Source of the DNA: Sinorhizobium alkalisoli
GTDB lineage: Bacteria; Pseudomonadota; Alphaproteobacteria; Rhizobiales; Rhizobiaceae
Direction: 5' to 3'
Length of the DNA stretch: 64,000 bases
Assembly (NCBI RefSeq): GCF_008932245.1
Contig: NZ_CP034909.1
Coordinates: 2,046,001 to 2,110,000, forward strand
Shown: positions 28,902-42,638 of the stretch, in pieces
Layout: every line of letters begins with the position of its first letter
Position numbering within the stretch: the stretch's first letter is position 1
Notes under the pieces: model-generated
The model's input: the letters and a program-made list of their open reading frames with translations, nothing else
Told to the model about the DNA's origin: nothing
The model's database searches: none
Made by a program: the position numbers and the translations under genes

Positions 28902-28923
28902 GGCCGATCTTTTTCCTTCGGCG

Positions 28924-28947
28924 CTATTGCCATATGGCCGGCAATAG
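28924..28947. promoter_or_regulatory. inverted repeat before the NmrA-like gene
   Basis: CTATTGCC-8 bases-GGCAATAG is a perfect 8-bp dyad 23 bases upstream of the start codon. A half-site-like AATATTGCC lies at about 28965. It is a probable operator for the NmrA-like gene; the regulator is not identified. Confidence 0.5.
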
Positions 28948-29001
28948 ACCTGATAATTATGACAAATATTGCCGCATCACGCGGCTTGCAAAGGGCCTAT
29001 T

Positions 29002-29688
29002 TCAATCGCGATGGCGTTGCGGTGCGAGCGCCATGGTTTGCGCGTAAGCCATCGGTGAGCGGTTGCCAGGCATGTTTTCGTCGAGCACCAGGGTCTTGAT
29101 ATTATCCGAGCGGACGTCAATCGCTATGACAGACTCAAGCTTGTCGATCTGCCACACCGCATAGCCGAGTTTCGCCTCATATCCGCAATCGCATCCGCAA
29201 TCGCCTTGCACGATTTTTCTCGGAGAGACAGGCAAGAACATGATCTGCGGTTTCGGTAATTTGTAGCAATGGCCTTCGTAGGCGTAGCCGTATATTACGC
29301 CAATGCTCTTCAAGTCATCTCCATCGCCCCCAGCGCAACCAACTTTAGTATTGAGATGTACGGGCAATGAACAAACCTCTGAACCGTGGAACAGGGCCAA
29401 CGTAACCCTCTCGCCGTCGGCGCCAATAATCGTGTCAGCCACGTAATCCGAAAAAATCTCTCTCGCAGCCACTGCCGCTGTCTTGTTATCCGTCCCGGCA
29501 AGCGTTTTTTCTGAAAGCCGAGCTTCCAACCGCTCGTCAACGACCTTATTGTCAACTTTGAATATTGAGTGGCACGCAGCAGGACGACCATATAATCGCA
29601 CTTCACCGGGGCGATAGGTGTCGTATTCTGGGTCAGGCAATTTCTCTTGAGACGTACCGACGCCGGGATTTCCGCAACAGTCGCTCAT
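29002..29688 (-). CDS. cysteine-rich protein of the YcaO-TfuA operon, unknown function
   Basis: A 228-residue protein I do not recognise. It opens MSDCCGNPGVG, has cysteines near VCSLPVH, KVGCAGGDGDD and GHCYKLPKP, and a dense motif GDCGCDCGYEAKLGYAVWQIDKLE. No signal peptide or membrane segment is seen. The ATG at 29688 sits 5 bases after AGGAGGG; a TTG at 29721 overlaps the upstream stop. Codon use is noticeably more A/T-rich than in the neighbours. It is the last gene of the operon with YcaO, TfuA and an HEXXH protein and could be the modified substrate, but this is only inference. Confidence 0.75.
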   Translation of the reverse strand: MSDCCGNPGVGTSQEKLPDPEYDTYRPGEVRLYGRPAACHSIFKVDNKVVDERLEARLSEKTLAGTDNKTAAVAAREIFSDYVADTIIGADGERVTLALFHGSEVCSLPVHLNTKVGCAGGDGDDLKSIGVIYGYAYEGHCYKLPKPQIMFLPVSPRKIVQGDCGCDCGYEAKLGYAVWQIDKLESVIAIDVRSDNIKTLVLDENMPGNRSPMAYAQTMALAPQRHRD

Positions 29689-29717
29689 CATTCCCTCCTC
29701 AAATAGCTCATCTCCAA

Positions 29718-30893
29718 TCAAATGATCTCACGCCACACAAAATTGGATTCCAGCCGTTCGGCCGCCGCGTCGCCCGCCTTGTCGATCACGGCGCTTGCTG
29801 CCTGCGCCAAAGTCAACATGTTGGGATCGAGCGTCCGCAGCGAAAGAGCAAGCGCCTGCCCGATTGCATCGCGAGCATCCGTCAGTGCCCGCTTGAAAGT
29901 GAGTGGCTTGATCCCGAAGGCATCCGCCGTCGCCTGACGAAAGCGGTCGAATTCATCCCGCGCAAGCTCCCGGATATCGAAATCCAGGAGGCTGCCGTCA
30001 GCGCAGCCGTTCGCGACGAGATCGCGATGATAGAGATCGACGATGCTGTCGAAGATGGCTCCGATGAACGGAAGCGCGCGGTCATGCACTTCGCGGGTAA
30101 CCGCGTGCATTTGGCGGAAATTGGTTGCCAGGCGGATCTGGGTCTCGGGACTCGTTTCTGCGAAGCGGTTCAGTTCGTTGTAGAGCAGAAGATTGCCTCT
30201 CGTTCGCCGAAGAAGCCGGTCGATCGCGGAATCGAAATGCAGGAAAGAAATCAGCGACACAATGTCCGCGAACGCTTCGGAGAACGAAAAGAAATCGTCG
30301 TCGCGCGGTATCCCGCTCGGAATACCTGTCTCGGACAGCATTACGAGATGCCCGACTTCGTGAGCGATCGTATCGAAATTCAAAGCGTAGGGCCGCCTGA
30401 TGCCATCGACTTCGGAGCAGCCCAACTCCAGAAAGCCGTAACCCGCCTGTGCGTTGTCCCAATCCACGAAGGCGACGATTTCGAGCCTTGGGAACCTCTG
30501 ATCGAAAAACCACCGGATCGGTCGGCCGAGATAACTCTGCCAGATGTCGAGGACGAAGCGCACGCAGGCATAGGCGTGAACTGCCAGAAATGGCCGTGAG
30601 CCCGGAACCATGTTGTCGAAGTGGCGGTCCGGGCCCGGCCTTGCCGGCGGGCGCCTCTCCCCCTCGAACGGCGGAAACCGGTCGAAACCGTATGGTTGCT
30701 TGTCGTAGGCAGGATCCACCACATACATCGTCACATCGCTGGGACCCGCGCCGATTTCGTCACGTGGTATCGACAGCCAGACGCGGTCCGGTTGCTCATA
30801 TCCGGGAATGAAGGGCGGTTGCGGGTAGATCCAGAAGCGCGTTCCGAGACGCGCATTTGCGGATTCGAGGGAATCGTCCCGAAGCAGACGCAT
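29718..30893 (-). CDS. HEXXH zinc-metallopeptidase-like protein of the YcaO-TfuA operon
   Basis: A 391-residue protein with DTIAHEVGHLVML (zinc-binding HEXXH) followed about 25 residues later by FFSFSEAFADIVSL, giving a glutamate at the right distance for a gluzincin-type peptidase. No signal peptide is seen, so it acts in the cytoplasm unless exported otherwise. ATG at 30893 is preceded by GGGGAGG; 30923 is an alternative. Its position between TfuA and the Cys-rich gene suggests a maturation peptidase, for example leader removal. I know of no named family for it. Confidence 0.75.
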   Translation of the reverse strand: MRLLRDDSLESANARLGTRFWIYPQPPFIPGYEQPDRVWLSIPRDEIGAGPSDVTMYVVDPAYDKQPYGFDRFPPFEGERRPPARPGPDRHFDNMVPGSRPFLAVHAYACVRFVLDIWQSYLGRPIRWFFDQRFPRLEIVAFVDWDNAQAGYGFLELGCSEVDGIRRPYALNFDTIAHEVGHLVMLSETGIPSGIPRDDDFFSFSEAFADIVSLISFLHFDSAIDRLLRRTRGNLLLYNELNRFAETSPETQIRLATNFRQMHAVTREVHDRALPFIGAIFDSIVDLYHRDLVANGCADGSLLDFDIRELARDEFDRFRQATADAFGIKPLTFKRALTDARDAIGQALALSLRTLDPNMLTLAQAASAVIDKAGDAAAERLESNFVWREII

Positions 30894-30930
30894 CGCACAA
30901 TTGCCTCCCCTCGATCGGAACATCCGGCAA

Positions 30931-31710
30931 TTAGGGATTCAATTTATAAGTGTTCACTAAATTTGAGTCAATGCCACTCGCCTCGAGATCCCGGATGAGG
31001 GTGTTCGTCGCAAGCCACGGTTCGGGCGCATATGCGTGCTTCCATTGCATCGCCAGGCTTGGCGCCGTGCGCAGGGCAAGGAGCGCATCGTGCCTCTTCT
31101 GCCCGTGAATTTCCTTCCGCACCTGCCTGATCCTGTCTTCCGGCCACCCCGCCGTCTGCATGACCGCACCGATGGACCGTTCGCGAAAATTCATCGCTCG
31201 CGCGATTGTTGTGAGCAGGTGGCGCTCGGCCGGCGTGATGAGCTTGCCGTGCATCCACGCGGAAAAGCTCCGCTGGAGATCGATTAGGGAGTCCGTCAGA
31301 GGCAGAAAGCCAAGCTCCGCAGGCCCGGAGTGGACGGCGACCGCGTCGTCCGGAGCAAGCTGCCAGCGCCGGTACCACCGGTAGATCAGCCCGACGCCGA
31401 CCATGCCGAAGGCGTTGAGTTCCGCGGCTCTGAGCGCGCCCATGCTGGCAGCGCCGATCACCGCGATCCCCTGTGCCATCGCCCAGAGGATTTCCTTGTG
31501 GCGAACGGCCGGCCGATCTTCGAACTGCCCGTCGATCAGCACCATGGCGCGGGGACGAAAGGCATGAGTGGCCAGCAGCATGTCCCCTTGCGCGGCGGGC
31601 TGCAGATAGACAGCGTCGAGCACAGCCTCGGCTTCGGCGAGACGCAGCGTCGGGCCGAGAAAAACGAGGATGGGACCGTCGACTTTTGTTTCGGCCATCT
31701 GAACGCTCAT
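30931..31710 (-). CDS. tfuA: TfuA-like protein
   Basis: A 259-residue protein with the TfuA core: VFLGPTLRLAEAEAVLDAVYLQPAAQGDM, MVLIDGQFEDRPAVRHKEILWAMAQGIAVIGAASMGALRAAEL and VGLIYRWYRRWQLAPDDAVAVHSGPAELGFLPLTDSLIDL. TfuA proteins act with YcaO enzymes; in methanogens the pair is implicated in thioamide formation in methyl-CoM reductase, and tfuA is also in the trifolitoxin locus of Rhizobium. The ATG overlaps the YcaO stop (ATGA), so the two are coupled. The name follows the family; the product is unknown. Confidence 0.9.
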   Translation of the reverse strand: MSVQMAETKVDGPILVFLGPTLRLAEAEAVLDAVYLQPAAQGDMLLATHAFRPRAMVLIDGQFEDRPAVRHKEILWAMAQGIAVIGAASMGALRAAELNAFGMVGVGLIYRWYRRWQLAPDDAVAVHSGPAELGFLPLTDSLIDLQRSFSAWMHGKLITPAERHLLTTIARAMNFRERSIGAVMQTAGWPEDRIRQVRKEIHGQKRHDALLALRTAPSLAMQWKHAYAPEPWLATNTLIRDLEASGIDSNLVNTYKLNP

Positions 31711-32900
31711 CGCAGACGGAAAAATGGAGTAGCGCCAGGAAGGACGGTTCGCACGCACCGCACACCCGTTTCGTCATCCGAACCCACGGGCACGGCCAGT
31801 ATCGGCCCCAGGCCAGCGGATGTCACCCTCTCCAACAACGAGGCGAGATCGCTGATCACGGCCGGCGTCTCAGTTGCCGCGACCGCCCCAGATGGCGCCT
31901 CGAGGATAAGTTGGCGCGCCGTGGCAACGACGGCGTCGGTGCTTTTTCTATAATGCTTTCTGGTTTGATCGTCGCGTGCGCCGGAAATCGCACCCGCCCG
32001 CGCCGACAGCGCCTCCAGCATTGCGGTTGACGCCGCCGCAGAAAGGCTCGGTCCGGCCGAGTAACCTTCCGTCGGAAGCGCCAGGATCGGCACGCCGGGA
32101 CCCATCTCGATCGTCTGGCACCACACGACCGGGACGCCCGTCGGCGAAGGCGCGAGCCACAGGCCGGAGGATATTCCGCGGAGCGCGGTAGCCGAAAGGA
32201 TCTGATCGACCCGATCACCAAGCCCGGTGGGGGCAATTCGCATCCGGTCGAAGAAGCCGTGGGTTGCAAAGGCGCGGGCGATGGCGTCGCGCTCGATGCA
32301 CTCGAATAACCCATGCAGGAATGCCCGACAGCCATCCATATGGCAGGCGAGGCCCGTAGTCGTGCGCAGGAAAAATCCATCATGGGCGGGAGGCGGATCG
32401 GTGTAGCAGGTATGCACCAGTTCCAGGGGAACCGGACACCTCGATCCGCTGATAACATCGACGCCGACAATCCAGGATATCTTGCTTGACCGCCAGTTGC
32501 CCTGCCGCTCGGCCAAGAGAAGATTTTCGAATAGCCCGTCGGCGATTTCGAGTTCGTCGGCGGTGGCGAAAAATATCTGCTCCGCCGGAATGGACTCGGC
32601 ATAGTAGCGTTCAAGCGCTTCCATGATCGCTCCGATAGCTGCCTCCGCTGTGGAGTGCCCCCGCCCCAGGGACGTGACTTCGGAAAGAGCGGCGGGCCGA
32701 ACGGCCTGCACGACCGGAAGCCCGACTCGGTCGAGCCCGGTCAGGTCGCCGATCCGGGTTATTCGCGCGCGACGACAGAGGGTGAGAAGCGCATGGAACC
32801 GGTGCTCCACGTCTTCAGCAGTTTGGTCTTCAGAGAGAGACATGTGTAGGTTTGAAACGATCGCGGCATGTAGATCGGCAAGCGCACCATTCAGGCGCAA
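31707..32900 (-). CDS. YcaO-domain ATP-dependent peptide cyclodehydratase/thioamidase
   Basis: A protein of about 397 residues in the YcaO superfamily, which uses ATP to activate peptide amide oxygens. The family's ATP-binding motifs are visible: SLGRGHSTAEAAIGAIMEALERYYAE, ACHMDGCRAFLHGLFECIERDAIARAF and the SLSAAASTAMLEALSARAGAISGARDD region. The C-terminus ends PFFRLR rather than the Pro-rich tail of azoline-forming enzymes, which with TfuA points to thioamidation. The start is uncertain: TTG at 32900 follows AGGAG by 8 bases and is preferred; ATG at 32843 is possible. Confidence 0.87.
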   Translation of the reverse strand: MRLNGALADLHAAIVSNLHMSLSEDQTAEDVEHRFHALLTLCRRARITRIGDLTGLDRVGLPVVQAVRPAALSEVTSLGRGHSTAEAAIGAIMEALERYYAESIPAEQIFFATADELEIADGLFENLLLAERQGNWRSSKISWIVGVDVISGSRCPVPLELVHTCYTDPPPAHDGFFLRTTTGLACHMDGCRAFLHGLFECIERDAIARAFATHGFFDRMRIAPTGLGDRVDQILSATALRGISSGLWLAPSPTGVPVVWCQTIEMGPGVPILALPTEGYSAGPSLSAAASTAMLEALSARAGAISGARDDQTRKHYRKSTDAVVATARQLILEAPSGAVAATETPAVISDLASLLERVTSAGLGPILAVPVGSDDETGVRCVRTVLPGATPFFRLR

Positions 32901-32904
32901 TGGA

Positions 32905-35721
32905 TCAGCTCCTGACAACAACACCAAGCTCCTGGATCGAACGTCTGGCGCGCTTGAGGAGGGCTTTTGCCCCCTGGCATTGCGCAATTTCAACGGCTGC
33001 GCTCAGGTCGGCAGCAAGCGCATCCTTATGTGTGCCGGCCCGAGCCTTGAGCAACGCCCGGCAACGGTGCAACTCCGCCAACCAGTAGGCATGGCCGGAT
33101 TCCTCCGACTTGGCGATTGCTTCGTCGGCCACCTCGATGGCGCTCGCAAAACTTCCGGCACGCCCCAGCAGGCTTGCATGCATGTAAAGGTAGATCGGCA
33201 GATCCGCGACGGCGCCGAGGCCTCTCAAAAGCTTCAATCCGTCACGGAATCGCTTGTGACCGCTTGCAAGATCCCCCCTGTGCGCCTCCGCCCACCCGCC
33301 GCACAGAAGCGACAGACCGGACAGCGACTGCATCCCGTGCTTTCCGGCAAACTCCGCCATGCGTTCCGAGATTTGGGCGAGATGTTCAAAATCTTCCCGA
33401 TAGAAGGCGGAGACCGCCTCGGTGTCGAGCGAGTGCGCCTTGCTCGGGACGTGGCCGATCCGATCGACGAACGAGATCATCCTCCTGAGTGCCGCATCCG
33501 ATGCCTTCGTCTGCCCCGTCAGCCAGAGGGAAAGCGCCAATTGTCCGAGACCGCAGACCTTCGCGTCGTGGCCGCCGAATTCCGTCCGGCTCTTCTGCGC
33601 CCGTCGCAGATCATAGAGCGCAAGGCCAGCCTTGATCGCCTCCTGCGTCTCCCGGTGCCGTCCGAGATTGAAATCGATCGCCCAGATGCAATGGTTGACC
33701 TGAAGCTGAATCTCCGGGTCCTCGGTCTTTGCCAGCATCGACTGCACTTCCAGGGCGCGGTCGTGCATGACGCGGAAATCGGAGCCCGTAAGCCACCAGC
33801 CCCAATAGATCGGGAACCATTTCGATTGCTCCTCCATCGGCTGCCGGCGGGCGATTTCGACGCCGCCTTCATAAAGCTTGCGCGCGGGCGGTGAATTCAG
33901 GCCCACAAGTCCGGTGAGGATCGGCCCCAGTGCCGTCAGCGCCGCAAGCTGCCGTGACTCGATCTGGCGTCCCTCGCCACACCGGCCGCAAAGGTCGAGA
34001 GCATGTTCCAGATATTGCCGCGCCTCTGTCATCGCCGAGCGGCTCGAGCTTTCCTTTCCGGCCGCTATGTACAGGTCGACCGCCTCCTCAAAGAGCCCGG
34101 CTCGCTCCGCATGCTCGGCCAGCCTTCCCGTATCGACCCACGTCGCCACGGCGCGATTCTGGCTGACGGCGCCATAGAGGCGCCGGTGCAGTACCTGGCG
34201 CTGCTTGCGCAGCAGCGCGTTATAGATCGTCTCCTGAACCAGCACGTGGCGAAAACCGTAGGCGATGCGCCCGGGTACCCGGACGCGCGTCAGGAACCCG
34301 GTCTCGCAGAGCGTGTCGGCCGCGGCTGCAATCGCCTTCTTGCCGAAGTCGGGCAGCAGCGCGCGAAGCAGCGGCAAGGTCACGTGCGTGCCGGCGGCGG
34401 CGGCCGCCCGCGCCACGTCGCGCGCCGAGCCCAGATGTTCGAGCCGAGCGTCGAGGATCGCTTCGAATGCCGACAGATGCGCCGGCTTGACGCTCTCCGA
34501 AAGGCTCTTCCTGCCGGCGTCGACATTCTCGGCGACCCATTGGCAAATCTCCTCTATGAAGAGAGGAACGCCGCCTGAAATCCGTTCCGTCACCTCAAAG
34601 AGTTCGGGAAGCGCCGCCAGCCGGTGCTGCGGCCACTTGGCCTCTATCGCCAATCTCGTCTCGCCGCGGTCCAGCGGCCGCAGCGACAGGCGCGTGGGGT
34701 CTGCCGCCTCCAGCCATTCCGAGGGCTCACCGGGACGCGAGGTCACGACGAGGAAAGCGGGATACCGATGGATGATACGGGCGGCCTCGCCGAGCAAGTC
34801 GCGGGATGTCGGATCGATCCAGTGGATGTCCTCGACGGCGATGACGACCGGCCCGTTTTGGCAGATCGCCTCGAGGGCCTGATCGACGGCGCGATATGCC
34901 TTCTCGCGGATCGTGCTGGGGCTGTCGTTCTGCAGGACCTGGCTCCGCCCTTGTGCCCCGAGCAGATAGGCAAAGATGTCGACGACGTCCGCGTCCACGA
35001 TGCCGTTGCGCTCGAAGAGGGCCTGCACCGCCGCAGCCGTGGGGCCCATCTGTCCGGTTTCGGAAGGCAGAATGTGCAGCAGCGGATGCAGCGTCGAGCG
35101 CAGCCCGCCCGGGAGGCATTGGAAGAAAAGCAGCTTCGTCCGCCGGTCGCGCGTCCGCCTGCGCAGTTCCCGCAGCAGCCGCGACTTGCCGATCCCCGCC
35201 TCGCCCTCGAGCAGGGCAACCGCCCCGCGCCCGCTCAACACGCCGTCCCACAGGCGGGTGATGGCGGCCAGTTCGCTTTCACGATTGATGAGGGGGCCCG
35301 CAACCCTGCCATAGGCATAGAAACGGTCGACTTCGATCTTGTGCCCCAGCGCACGCCAGACCTTCTCCGGTTCGGCGAAGCCCTTGAGTGTCTTGCTGCC
35401 CTGGAACACGAAGGCATGCGAACGTCCGGCAAGATTGCGCGTGTCCTCGGAAACGAGAACGCTGTTGGGGTCGGCGATGGCCTCGAGCCGGGTGGCCATG
35501 GCGAGCGCGGCGCCCGTCACCGGCTCTTCCATCCCGCCTTCCTGCGACGGGTCGCGGACGAGCGCGATGGACGTGGCGATGCCGACGCGAACGCCCAGAT
35601 CGTCCCGTCCGCCCTCGCGGCCAACCCGTTCGCAGGCATCGACGATCCCGAGCCCCGCCCGGATCGCGAGCGAGGCGGAATCCCTGGCGTCGAGCTCGAC
35701 CGGGAAAAGCCACGCCACCAT
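32905..35721 (-). CDS. cyclase/AAA-ATPase/TPR protein, main reading frame
   Basis: A 938-residue frame holding most of a protein of the adenylate-cyclase-ATPase type. Order: remainder of a class III cyclase domain (RVGIATSIALV to ITGAALAMATRLEAIADPNSVLVSEDTR-like text), FQGSKTLKGFAEPEKVWR, then an AAA/NB-ARC-like ATPase with Walker A GEAGIGKS and Walker B VVIAVEDIHWIDP, and a long C-terminal TPR-type helical region. The N-terminal cyclase half (35968 to about 35705) is in a different frame, so this gene has a +1-type shift or is broken. It lies 4 bases before YcaO and may give the operon a signal-responsive control. Confidence 0.8.
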   Translation of the reverse strand: MVAWLFPVELDARDSASLAIRAGLGIVDACERVGREGGRDDLGVRVGIATSIALVRDPSQEGGMEEPVTGAALAMATRLEAIADPNSVLVSEDTRNLAGRSHAFVFQGSKTLKGFAEPEKVWRALGHKIEVDRFYAYGRVAGPLINRESELAAITRLWDGVLSGRGAVALLEGEAGIGKSRLLRELRRRTRDRRTKLLFFQCLPGGLRSTLHPLLHILPSETGQMGPTAAAVQALFERNGIVDADVVDIFAYLLGAQGRSQVLQNDSPSTIREKAYRAVDQALEAICQNGPVVIAVEDIHWIDPTSRDLLGEAARIIHRYPAFLVVTSRPGEPSEWLEAADPTRLSLRPLDRGETRLAIEAKWPQHRLAALPELFEVTERISGGVPLFIEEICQWVAENVDAGRKSLSESVKPAHLSAFEAILDARLEHLGSARDVARAAAAAGTHVTLPLLRALLPDFGKKAIAAAADTLCETGFLTRVRVPGRIAYGFRHVLVQETIYNALLRKQRQVLHRRLYGAVSQNRAVATWVDTGRLAEHAERAGLFEEAVDLYIAAGKESSSRSAMTEARQYLEHALDLCGRCGEGRQIESRQLAALTALGPILTGLVGLNSPPARKLYEGGVEIARRQPMEEQSKWFPIYWGWWLTGSDFRVMHDRALEVQSMLAKTEDPEIQLQVNHCIWAIDFNLGRHRETQEAIKAGLALYDLRRAQKSRTEFGGHDAKVCGLGQLALSLWLTGQTKASDAALRRMISFVDRIGHVPSKAHSLDTEAVSAFYREDFEHLAQISERMAEFAGKHGMQSLSGLSLLCGGWAEAHRGDLASGHKRFRDGLKLLRGLGAVADLPIYLYMHASLLGRAGSFASAIEVADEAIAKSEESGHAYWLAELHRCRALLKARAGTHKDALAADLSAAVEIAQCQGAKALLKRARRSIQELGVVVRS

Positions 35722-35968
35722 CGCCAGCCTCGTGTTGAATGACGCCGGAGTGAGAAGCGATCGACTGCCTCGCCGCCCGCTGAAAAGCGGACATCAGCTC
35801 CTGGTAGTCTTCAATGTCCATGAGATGCAGGAGATCGGTCGACCCGACGAGATCGTAGCAGAGCGCCGTGACGATGCGCCGCTCCCCGCCGGGCGCAAAG
35901 GAAGTGCCCGCGCGCCTTCCGCGCCCGGCCGCTCGTCGTGGTGTCTTGATCCCGCTTTCGCGCAGCAT
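35699..35968 (-). pseudogene. N-terminal cyclase half of the same gene, out of frame
   Basis: From the ATG at 35968 the frame reads a basic leader and then RRIVTALCYDLVGSTDLLHLMDIEDYQELMSAFQRAARQSIASHSGVIQHEAGDGGVAF, the start of a class III cyclase with metal-binding D and the GDG turn. Near 35701-35712 (GGCTTTTCCCGG on the coding strand) homology passes to the frame of the downstream CDS, PVELDARDSASLAIRAG. Either a true mutation, a sequence error or a programmed +1 shift at TTT-CCC-G explains this. Confidence 0.78.
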
Positions 35969-36448
35969 GCACCACCCCCGCCTTCCGCGACACAACCGTA
36001 GTTCGGCGCGCGGCATCCCAGATTTAAACAGTATCGCTTTCTCGTAATACTTTTTTCGTTGTTGACCTGAATGGGCTAGCAACCGCCGATATTGCAGTCA
36101 GAGGCTGACGGTCGAACGGACCGATGTCAATCGGCGGCAGGTTGCATGCAACCGCTCGCTAGCAATCAGGCGCAAGGCAGGTACGTTGCGGCAAGCTGCT
36201 TCCCCAGGGGAAGTTGCTCCCCAGAGCACGACAAAGTGCAAAAAAGTCGATCCCCCGGGCCGTTCAATTGCCCCTCATCCGGCCTGCCGGCCACCTTCTC
36301 CCCGCAGGCGGGGCGAAGGAAACTCGCAGCACCCTCCAGTTCCCTCTCCCCGCCTGCGGCGAGAGGGCTAGGGTGAGGGGCGGCACCTTCGGGTCGCTAT
36401 GGCGCACACCACCAGAAGGCAGACTTTTCAGGGCTTTGCCGGCGCCCC
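35969..36448. other. 480-base intergenic region with a palindromic repeat
   Basis: No gene is supported. The region before the cyclase gene contains a lower-GC promoter-like part (36020-36065). A repeat described separately occupies 36271-36380. The string CAAAGTGCAAAAAAGTCGATCCC at about 36230-36250 looks regulatory but matches nothing I know. Confidence 0.45.
36271..36380. repeat. long imperfect palindrome of the C-rich type
   Basis: CCCCTCATCCGGCCTGCCGGCC at one end and AGGGTGAGGGG at the other pair as the outer arms, with CTTCTCCCCGC..GGCGGGGCGAAGG and CTCTCCCCGCCTGCGGCGAGAGG as inner stems. Such palindromes are dispersed in rhizobial chromosomes between convergent genes. Confidence 0.7.
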
Positions 36449-41354: not shown

Positions 41355-42000
41355 GATAGCTCTCCCAGGCATCGATCGAGACGGTGAGCGTAGGATCGCC
41401 CCCCTCGCCCCAGATTTCAGGCCCATCGAACACGACCGTATAGACCCATTGCGGGTTCTCGCCCTTGCCGTGGGCGTTGTCGTCCGGGAAAACGAAGCTT
41501 CCCTGCACCGCCTCCACCACGCCCGCCCTGGCCCGGGCATAGCGCGGCAGACGCGTATGCGTTTCCGGATTGAAGTTCTTGGTGCGAACCCTCTCGCCGA
41601 CGGCAAAGCGCGGCGGCGTACCGACCGGGCGGTCGCAGGGGCCGCCCCTGGCGAGCACGCCGGCGACCATCTCCGCCTTCAGCACGTTTTTCGGCTCGCG
41701 CCCCCGGTACAGACTACGGCCGGCATCGAGTTCGGCCTGCGTGACGAAATCGTGCCGTTTCAAGAGCTGCTCGAGCGCGCGCGTCCAGATCTCGTAATAG
41801 CTCGCCGAAAGATAGGTCGCCGGCGGCAGGCATTCGCGCGCGTGCCGGCTTTCGTCGAGCGTCCAGGCGCCAAAGGCCCCGCAGGAGAGCGTGATGCCGA
41901 GTGCCCGCTTCTCCCATTCGGCATGGAAAACGGGTTCGTTCCTTTCCGGCGCGATCGGACCGAAACCCTGCTGCCCGCCGAGATCGTGCGGTCCGTTCAT
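41341..42000 (-). CDS. nthB: nitrile hydratase beta subunit
   Basis: A 219-residue beta subunit. It starts [16 protein letters not shown] and includes [98 protein letters not shown], all typical. The Arg residues of LPRYARAR that contact the alpha-subunit metal claw are present. The enzyme hydrates nitriles to amides. It overlaps the alpha gene by 4 bases. Confidence 0.94.
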
Positions 42001-42638
42001 CGCACCGCCCCCGGAGAAAGGGCAAGCCCCGTGCCGATCATCGAGTCGCGCGTAACGAGGTCGGCGAGCGCCTCTTCGCTGATGCCCTCCGTGCCGTCGG
42101 GCCGCTCCGGCACGACGAGATAACGCAGCTCCGCAGTCGAATCCCAGACGCGGACCTTCTTGTCCGCCGCCAGGTCGAGCCCGAATTCCGCAAGCACCCC
42201 GCGAGGATCGATCACTGCGCGAGAGCGATAGGACGGCGCCTTGTACCAGACCGGCGGCAGGCCGAGCACCGCCCAGGGATAGCAGGAGCAGAGCGTGCAG
42301 ACGACGAGGTTATGCGTCTCGGGCGTATTGAACACGGCGCGCATATGCTCGCCCTGCCGGCCGGTAAAACCGAGGCTCGCAATCGCCGCCGTTGCATCAC
42401 GCCGCAGCCACTCGGCGAAGCTGGCATCGGCCCAGGCCCTGGCGACGACGCGGGCGCCGTTCCGCGGCCCCACCTTGTTTTCATAAGTTTCGACGATCGC
42501 ATCGATGGCTGCCGGGTCGATCAGGCCCTTTTCCGTCAGCAGGCTCTCCAGCGCCTTCACCCGCGCTTCCATATCGGTGAAGTGATTGTCGTGAGGGTGG
42601 TCATGCTCAGGCCCATTGCCATGGCGGTGCTCGGACAT
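41997..42638 (-). CDS. nthA: nitrile hydratase alpha subunit, cobalt type
   Basis: A 213-residue alpha subunit carrying the metal site. VCTLCSC (C114-T115-L-C117-S118-C119) is the cobalt-type claw; the iron type has Ser instead of Thr. Further family text: [68 protein letters not shown]. The N-terminus has [16 protein letters not shown], a His-rich stretch that may bind the incoming metal. In rhizobia such operons handle plant or soil nitriles, for example indole-3-acetonitrile; the substrate here is not known. Confidence 0.95.

Follow-up and report, generated by a model that had tools for sequence, protein, structure and literature searches.

What does a YcaO enzyme modify when its gene lies next to a tfuA gene and no short precursor peptide is found beside the two? 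This question is raised by an operon of Sinorhizobium alkalisoli, located in a stretch of 64,000 nucleotides of contig NZ_CP034909.1 (hereafter the window). As the preliminary description of the window had stated, five tightly packed genes on the minus strand are present, and the list of open reading frames (ORFs) of the window contains all of them, from position 29002 upward. They encode a cyclase/ATPase/TPR protein, YcaO, TfuA, a protein with an HEXXH motif and a protein referred to as Cys-rich. Probably, though by no means certainly, the operon is a system in which YcaO and TfuA modify the backbone of a gene-encoded precursor as large as a protein, namely the Cys-rich protein. The idea that this protein is the substrate rests on its homology to repeat-ended, precursor-like proteins and on a divergence of substrate versus enzymes that resembles the one of ribosomally synthesized and post-translationally modified peptides (RiPPs). 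The features of the locus are the following.

29002..29688, minus strand: Cys-rich protein, 228 aa, proposed precursor or substrate; an ORF, 3′ of the HEXXH gene in 80 of 80 loci, homologous by profile to the repeat-ended proteins that occupy this place in other loci; plan of N-terminal motif, swapped slot, conserved domain and C-terminal tail
29308..29580, minus strand: swapped slot, residues 37-127, differing from strain to strain; bimodal identity in 66 pairs, within-gene mosaics, model with low predicted local distance difference test (pLDDT) values
29074..29307, minus strand: conserved domain, residues 128-205 (GVIYGYAYEGHCYKLPKPxIM...W.IDK...); common to repeat-ended relatives, model blocks 131-200
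29005..29073, minus strand: fixed tail, residues 206-228, candidate core; conserved across slot alleles, alignment A4
29718..30893, minus strand: HEXXH protein, 391 aa, probable gluzincin metallopeptidase; invariant residues in three alignments, model
30264..30362, minus strand: codons H178-D210 of the HEXXH protein (predicted active-site helices); alignments and model
30931..31710, minus strand: TfuA, 259 aa, probable sulfur-transfer partner; PF07812 4e-41, closest solved structure by sequence PDB 6xp8, 2.4e-26
31707..32900, minus strand: YcaO, start uncertain (frame open to 32993); PF02624 5e-50, closest solved structure by sequence PDB 6pe3 (MJ1094), 1.7e-7
32905..35721, minus strand: cyclase/ATPase/TPR protein, main frame; AAA_16 2e-17, TIGR03903 321.7 bits versus a cut-off of 705.75
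35710..35968, minus strand: N-terminal cyclase part, out of frame with the remainder of the gene; frame broken near 35.71 kb, intact copies in relatives

The Cys-rich protein and its relatives

All five genes occur in the same order and on the same strand in 80 of 80 kept relatives, the best of 267 that were confirmed by scanning genome contigs with the HEXXH alignment, so the expectation of a conserved system with shared synteny is borne out. In a wider group of HEXXH proteins, from other alphaproteobacteria, the gene directly 3′ of the HEXXH gene encodes the same conserved domain as the Cys-rich protein, followed by short tandem repeats. The domains of the window clade and of the repeat group are aligned by hhalign over 79 columns, with a probability of 98.3% and an E-value of 1.6e-14. 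The repeats are distributed over the loci (L numbers) as follows.

VSGAR or VSGAK: L189, L199, L201, L202, L205-L207, L209, L210
MNARG: L197, L203, L204
GANAR: L198
AYSGGK: L200
RAMMQS: L208
RAVMAS: L187
SDLVGR: L190
MNVG: L192
GRSSG: L237 (partial ORF)

A perfect-repeat run is present in 18 of the 21 distinct proteins that were scored. When the imperfect repeats of L210 are counted by eye, 19 of 20 proteins outside the window clade carry repeats, L191 being the exception; the contigs of L188 and L238 end before the repeat region. Perfect runs are short, with 3 to 10 units and periods of 4, 5 or 6 residues, and imperfect units continue several arrays (L187, L201, L209, L210). As the script chose perfect amino-acid runs, the units of a run are alike by construction. 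At the DNA level, which played no part in the choice, the units differ by synonymous codons (8 of 8 distinct DNA units in L189, 7 of 7 in L204-L207), which is a sign of selection on the peptide. In alignment A4, the repeats of the relatives stand where the window protein has its tail. With respect to a leader-plus-core plan the picture is mixed: the relatives end in core-like repeats, the window copy in a conserved tail, residues 206-228, with a mean identity of 89.9% even across differing slot alleles.

The two kinds of loci are separated in quick trees. In the HEXXH tree, 66 rows, all of the window's kind and without repeats, cluster together (Shimodaira-Hasegawa-like approximate likelihood ratio test, SH-aLRT, 100), and the 16 repeat-ended rows and L191 lie outside this cluster; the non-repeat rows also form one supported group in the TfuA and YcaO trees (95 and 100, respectively). 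The repeat state requires two changes on the HEXXH tree, which is unrooted and has long branches that include L187, L190, L191, L192, L200 and L208.

The second line of evidence is the divergence of the slot. It was examined in alignment A2, which contains 73 Cys-rich proteins, the window copy included, after omission by eye of 8 of 81 as near-copies. Among 66 A2 pairs whose YcaO proteins are at least 88% identical, the slot is 0-29% identical in 41 pairs and 60-99% identical in 25, with none between; the pairs share loci and hence are not independent. In the 41 divergent pairs the slot averages 18.5%, while YcaO, TfuA and the HEXXH protein average 94-96%. Over the whole Cys-rich protein, 98 pairs with the same YcaO threshold split into 60 with 49-65% and 38 with 83-98% identity; the cyclase is 78-81% identical in some of these 98. 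At a threshold of 50%, the 73 proteins contain 40 slot types, and six pairwise alignments show within-gene mosaics with conserved ends. The slot is nearly absent in the L047 and L054 copies. At the DNA level, 300-base bins of the window and L037 are mostly 92-99% identical on both flanks and 54-79% identical over approximately 29.1-31.2 kb, a stretch that comprises the end of TfuA, the HEXXH gene and the Cys-rich gene. A second lower stretch (77%) lies at approximately 36.0-36.6 kb, between the operon and a helicase gene. Constant enzymes combined with a divergent slot are as expected from tolerant enzymes and a varied substrate.

The residues that are invariant in A2 are M1, P8, G34, Y135, E138, G139, P147, W179, L202, N205, P207, G208, R210, P212 and Y215. 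The AlphaFold model of the Cys-rich protein is moderate (pLDDT 70.5, predicted template modelling score, pTM, 0.60), with pLDDT values of 76-91 in the blocks of residues 131-200 and of 47-73 in the ten-residue blocks of the slot (41-130), falling below 50 at 83-93 and 116-123. Its profile has no sequence match in the PDB up to E 10.

No separate short precursor had been visible in the window, and a comparison of the loci is in line with this. In 81 loci, all stop-to-stop ORFs of at least 25 aa that lie no more than 6 kb from the operon were subjected to an all-against-all BLAST comparison (E 1e-6), and no non-operon cluster covers more than 37 of these loci. That largest cluster consists of 358 overlapping ORFs, mostly downstream and on the opposite strand; the next clusters cover at most 16 loci.

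The enzymes and the distribution of the operon

YcaO and TfuA are both clear members of their families, as had been proposed (PF02624, 171 bits versus a cut-off of 25.7; PF07812, 139.9 bits versus a cut-off of 30). Their genes are adjacent, with an overlap of 4 bases. According to the preliminary description, the proposed system would fall apart if the YcaO-TfuA pair were common without the other genes. This is half the case: among the best 30 TfuA loci, considered with 1.5 kb on each side, the HEXXH gene lies beside TfuA in 19 and is absent in 11. TfuA itself was found in 70 of 247 genomes of the family. In the TfuA tree, the rows lacking HEXXH are separated from the others by a branch with weak support (43%), and in the YcaO tree they require two changes. 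The window's own genome encodes a second YcaO (L034 8513-9724; C1, approximately 2.2685 Mb), 36% identical over query residues 77-408, which adjoins HAMP-PAS-cyclase and TPR proteins; the TfuA profile is unmatched in the 20 kb around it. A second TfuA of the same genome (L196 7899-9233; C2, approximately 1.842 Mb) lies in 18 kb in which the YcaO profile is unmatched.

The HEXXH and Cys-rich proteins had been described as lying outside named families, and this stands: neither has a Pfam or NCBIfam match up to E 1. Three alignments, with members of the repeat group included, show no variation at H178, E179, H182, E206 and D210 of the HEXXH protein. From one of these (A3), 17 of 81 HEXXH proteins were omitted: one split and two motif-less proteins by script, and 14 near-copies by eye. 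The HEXXH motif is followed by a Glu 24 residues past the last His, and this Glu is part of an ExxxD motif; spacing and ExxxD together are the gluzincin pattern. The AlphaFold model (pLDDT 84.9, pTM 0.87) contains helices at 173-189 and 201-217, and the sole sequence hint to a solved fold is a weak match to angiotensin-converting enzyme (ACE; E 0.033). Judged from its sequence, the protein is probably a gluzincin metallopeptidase.

The first gene of the operon matches AAA_16, in addition to a weak cyclase match. It had been described as one frame reaching 35968, which does not hold, as the N-terminal cyclase part sits in another frame (ORF 35279-36082). The frame of the gene is open in all 23 relatives compared, and in 21 of these the motif at the break is comparable and continuous in one frame; with three of them the DNA was aligned. 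The break may be a sequencing error or a real one. L042 and L043 have a different N-terminus of the first gene, which by eye is SARP/BTAD-type regulator-like at the place where others have the cyclase domain. All 81 operons of the window's kind contain the cyclase, but it is not universal in the repeat group: it lies upstream in L187, L190 and L208, another kind of cyclase lies downstream in L197, L198, L203 and L204, and in the remaining loci of that group no cyclase was detected on the operon strand, with a weak match on the opposite strand in L189.

The kept loci come from Sinorhizobium, Ensifer, Rhizobium, Ferirhizobium, Phyllobacterium, Chelativorans, Pseudaminobacter, Mesorhizobium, Stappia, Roseibium/Labrenzia, Microvirga and Aestuariivirga. 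In some of the 80, one profile matches more than one ORF (e.g., L070, L089, L095, L103), which may reflect a split gene or a second copy. The nearest relatives are found in Sinorhizobium and Ensifer, with 87% identity of the HEXXH protein to Sinorhizobium fredii USDA 205 and 95% of YcaO to Ensifer sp. LCM 4579. Within the family, the Cys-rich protein was matched in 29 of 297 genomes, and the complete five-gene order is present in 24 of these 29, the window's own genome included in both counts (23 of the 28 others). The co-occurrence of the five genes is thus far beyond chance. Of the other five, L059-L061 have weak Cys-rich matches (E 7e-4 to 5e-3) and lack the operon, L062 is a 3.2-kb contig that holds just the HEXXH and Cys-rich genes, and L048 has an isolated fragment. 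The HEXXH protein was matched in 26 of 199 genomes of the family, in 11 of 385 of the class (three weak) and in 11 of 398 of the phylum (four weak and partial), each time with the own genome included, as well as in 124 of 72,556 plasmid records, one Nostoc record counted among them. The family is also present in Rhizobium johnstonii 3841.

Some further observations concern single loci. L048 9498-9680 encodes a lone, relic-like C-terminal fragment of the Cys-rich family, with the other four genes unmatched in 19 kb. On plasmid pRL11 of R. johnstonii 3841, a 131-aa protein annotated as hypothetical (L063 10693-11088, RL_RS31020) is encoded directly 3′ of the Cys-rich homologue. Two other kinds of system were considered for the operon and rejected: a defence system, with zero PADLOC matches up to E 0.01, and a phage origin, as the HEXXH protein has no match in the phage collection. 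Elsewhere in the window, an ORF on the minus strand (41997-42638) contains a 10-residue motif that presumably resembles the one of nitrile hydratase alpha subunits.

Proposed mechanism and competing explanations

In the mechanism that would follow from this reading, the conserved domain of the Cys-rich protein, the leader in RiPP terms, docks to the enzymes, with the slot sitting ahead of the domain. YcaO would activate a backbone amide with ATP and TfuA would deliver sulfur, which makes a thioamide the likeliest product. The site of modification would be the C-terminal segment, i.e., the fixed 23-residue tail in the window protein and the tandem repeats in most relatives outside the window clade. 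The HEXXH gluzincin could cut the precursor, either between domain and tail or between repeats, and the cyclase/ATPase protein may act as a sensor or regulator. The data themselves show the conservation of the operon, the family membership of YcaO and TfuA, the HEXXH-E-D pattern, the homology of the conserved domain to repeat-ended proteins, the synonymous codon changes among repeat units and the swapping of alleles; which protein is modified, by what chemistry and where, whether it is cut, what the cyclase does and what the system is for is what we infer.

Several points weigh against a modified Cys-rich precursor. The operon has no known product, and Pfam shows no transporter among the five genes. 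Repeats are missing from the window protein, and its tail shows a conservation that is unusual for RiPP cores, which tend to vary. The 80 loci were picked via the HEXXH protein and so cannot reveal its absence, and a separate precursor of less than 25 aa, or one too short or divergent for the BLAST threshold, would evade the ORF clustering. Pentapeptide-repeat models match the VSGAR-type repeats in 3 of 10 proteins, in 2 of them above the PF00805 cut-off. Lastly, Rhizobium etli CFN 42 plasmid p42c (L251 3046-7330) and Rhizobium sp. NZLR1 (L252) have a cyclase, an HEXXH protein and an imperfect-repeat homologue, with YcaO and TfuA absent in approximately 11 kb; a further small protein is encoded in both loci. 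The pair of HEXXH protein and precursor can therefore exist without local modification enzymes, which may be absent or encoded elsewhere in these strains. The HEXXH protein and the precursor form the tightest pair.

The alternative that survives best, although we consider it unlikely, assigns the Cys-rich protein an accessory part in recognition or as a scaffold, in role like a RiPP recognition element (RRE), and takes the modified substrate to be another peptide or protein, encoded elsewhere. E. coli YcaO modifies uL16, so unlinked proteins can indeed be YcaO substrates (PMC13063428), the fixed tail is not core-like, and in the Rhizobium loci just described an HEXXH protein and a homologue occur without an adjacent YcaO-TfuA pair. 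However, a scaffold hardly explains why homologues carry C-terminal repeats with synonymous codon differences, nor why the Cys-rich protein diverges in most close pairs and the enzymes do not.

It is more improbable still that the repeat-ended proteins are structural, forming a pentapeptide-like solenoid or an adhesin-like display, and that the operon serves to assemble or mature a protein of a surface or particle rather than a small product. The pentapeptide-repeat matches of the VSGAR-type proteins could indeed reflect a structural solenoid, and in a scan of seven proteins the slots of L197, L203 and L143 match phage virion modules: a head decoration protein (2e-9), a virion structural protein (1e-8) and a tail fibre (8e-5), respectively. 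However, in the same scan the slots of the window protein, L198 and L204 have no virion or tail match. Moreover, a single solenoid would not accommodate periods of 4, 5 and 6 residues, the perfect runs comprise few units, and the window protein has no Pfam pentapeptide match.

The cysteines had been taken as the key to the protein as an unusual substrate. As a substrate it is still the best candidate, on account of its homology to repeat-ended proteins and its divergence versus the enzymes, but the emphasis on cysteines has to be abandoned. Much of the family lacks C4/C5 and C164/C166, and the number of cysteines per protein ranges from 0 to 19 over the 73 A2 rows; Cys richness characterizes the window copy and its close relatives rather than the family. 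A metal-binding protein or a Cys-modification substrate was accordingly set aside as the principal reading, because the cysteines are not conserved. C141 and C168 are Cys/Cys in 59 rows, Thr/Ser in 12 and neither in 2, and never just one of the two. Their state switches at least four times on the HEXXH tree, which need not reflect independent mutations, because alleles are swapped. A disulfide is the simplest reading for this pair, and modification at both positions is conceivable. That C141 and C168 are turned into azolines is very improbable: their strict covariation involves the residues used by azoline-forming YcaO enzymes, but a structural disulfide or a shared metal site accounts for it equally, two relatives have neither residue, repeat-ended relatives do not keep the pair, and TfuA indicates thioamides rather than azolines.

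Known systems and biological meaning

The reading of the Cys-rich protein as precursor invites comparison with characterized YcaO systems. Thiovarsolins, encoded by the var genes of Streptomyces, derive from a repeating YcaO-TfuA precursor with the core tripeptide APR, in which the thioamide lies between Pro and Arg; the precursor family ranges from no repeat to five (PMC6511847). The present loci share with them the YcaO-TfuA pair, a conserved precursor part followed by C-terminal repeats, and the existence of repeating and non-repeating members. In several repeats here, Arg or Lys is likewise preceded by a small residue (GAR, NAR, GAK, VGR), which is suggestive at most. In contrast to thiovarsolin, a swapped slot accompanies the conserved domain, the operon includes a cyclase and an HEXXH protein of its own, and the five genes have no Pfam match for a heme oxygenase, an amidinotransferase or an ATP-grasp enzyme. 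The APR/GPR repeat core is not found either: the repeats of the relatives differ in sequence and the window protein has none.

A second comparison concerns the archaeal thioamidation of a McrA glycine by YcaO and TfuA, where the substrate is a protein. MJ1094 is the closest solved YcaO and McrA-type NCBIfam models match, with scores that stay far below the equivalog cut-offs (TIGR03266, 119.2 of 365; NF033432, 163.4 of 235.2). E. coli YcaO acting on uL16 is described as the second example of YcaO-catalysed protein thioamidation; in that case, too, a YcaO acts on a folded protein, but without TfuA and on a substrate that is not encoded adjacently (PMC13063428). Thirdly, the first gene of the operon resembles the kinase/cyclase fusion of thiazole/oxazole-modified microcin (TOMM) systems. 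It matches positions 352-1267 of TIGR03903, so that the first 351 positions, the N-terminal kinase part included, are unmatched and the score remains below the cut-off. The operon is not filed as thiovarsolin, McrA-type or TOMM kinase/cyclase, because the defining features that were tested were not found.

More than 500 TfuA clusters of Rhizobium have been reported (Malit et al., 2021; PMC8120280), and the present loci are therefore probably among those counted. For the TfuA families of that survey, the main-text parts covered here mention neither an HEXXH or cyclase neighbour nor repeat-ended or slot-bearing precursors. A 2026 preprint lists four characterized YcaO-TfuA-modified RiPP classes besides its own new one (PMC13174530); a protein-sized, slot-bearing precursor with an HEXXH partner is absent from the class descriptions in the part of the preprint covered. 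The arrangement is real, widespread and, in the open-licence TfuA and YcaO papers that were searched, undescribed; it is best read as a form of YcaO-TfuA modification whose precursor has the size of a protein.

A bolder form of this reading holds that the operon makes a new class of thioamide-type products from modular, protein-sized precursors, with a docking domain, an exchangeable display slot, a modified C-terminal segment and control by the cyclase, the slot being a recognition or self/non-self determinant. We regard this as rather unlikely as a whole. If true, rhizobial strains with dozens of slot alleles would share one chemistry and differ in target, and in some species the slot would consist of modules that are also known from phage virion and tail-fibre proteins. 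As candidate substrate, enzymes and probable protease are encoded in one short operon, the chemistry is directly testable. The swapping of slot alleles suggests a strong diversifying pressure on something outward-facing, and such a pressure would bear on the competition among legume symbionts.

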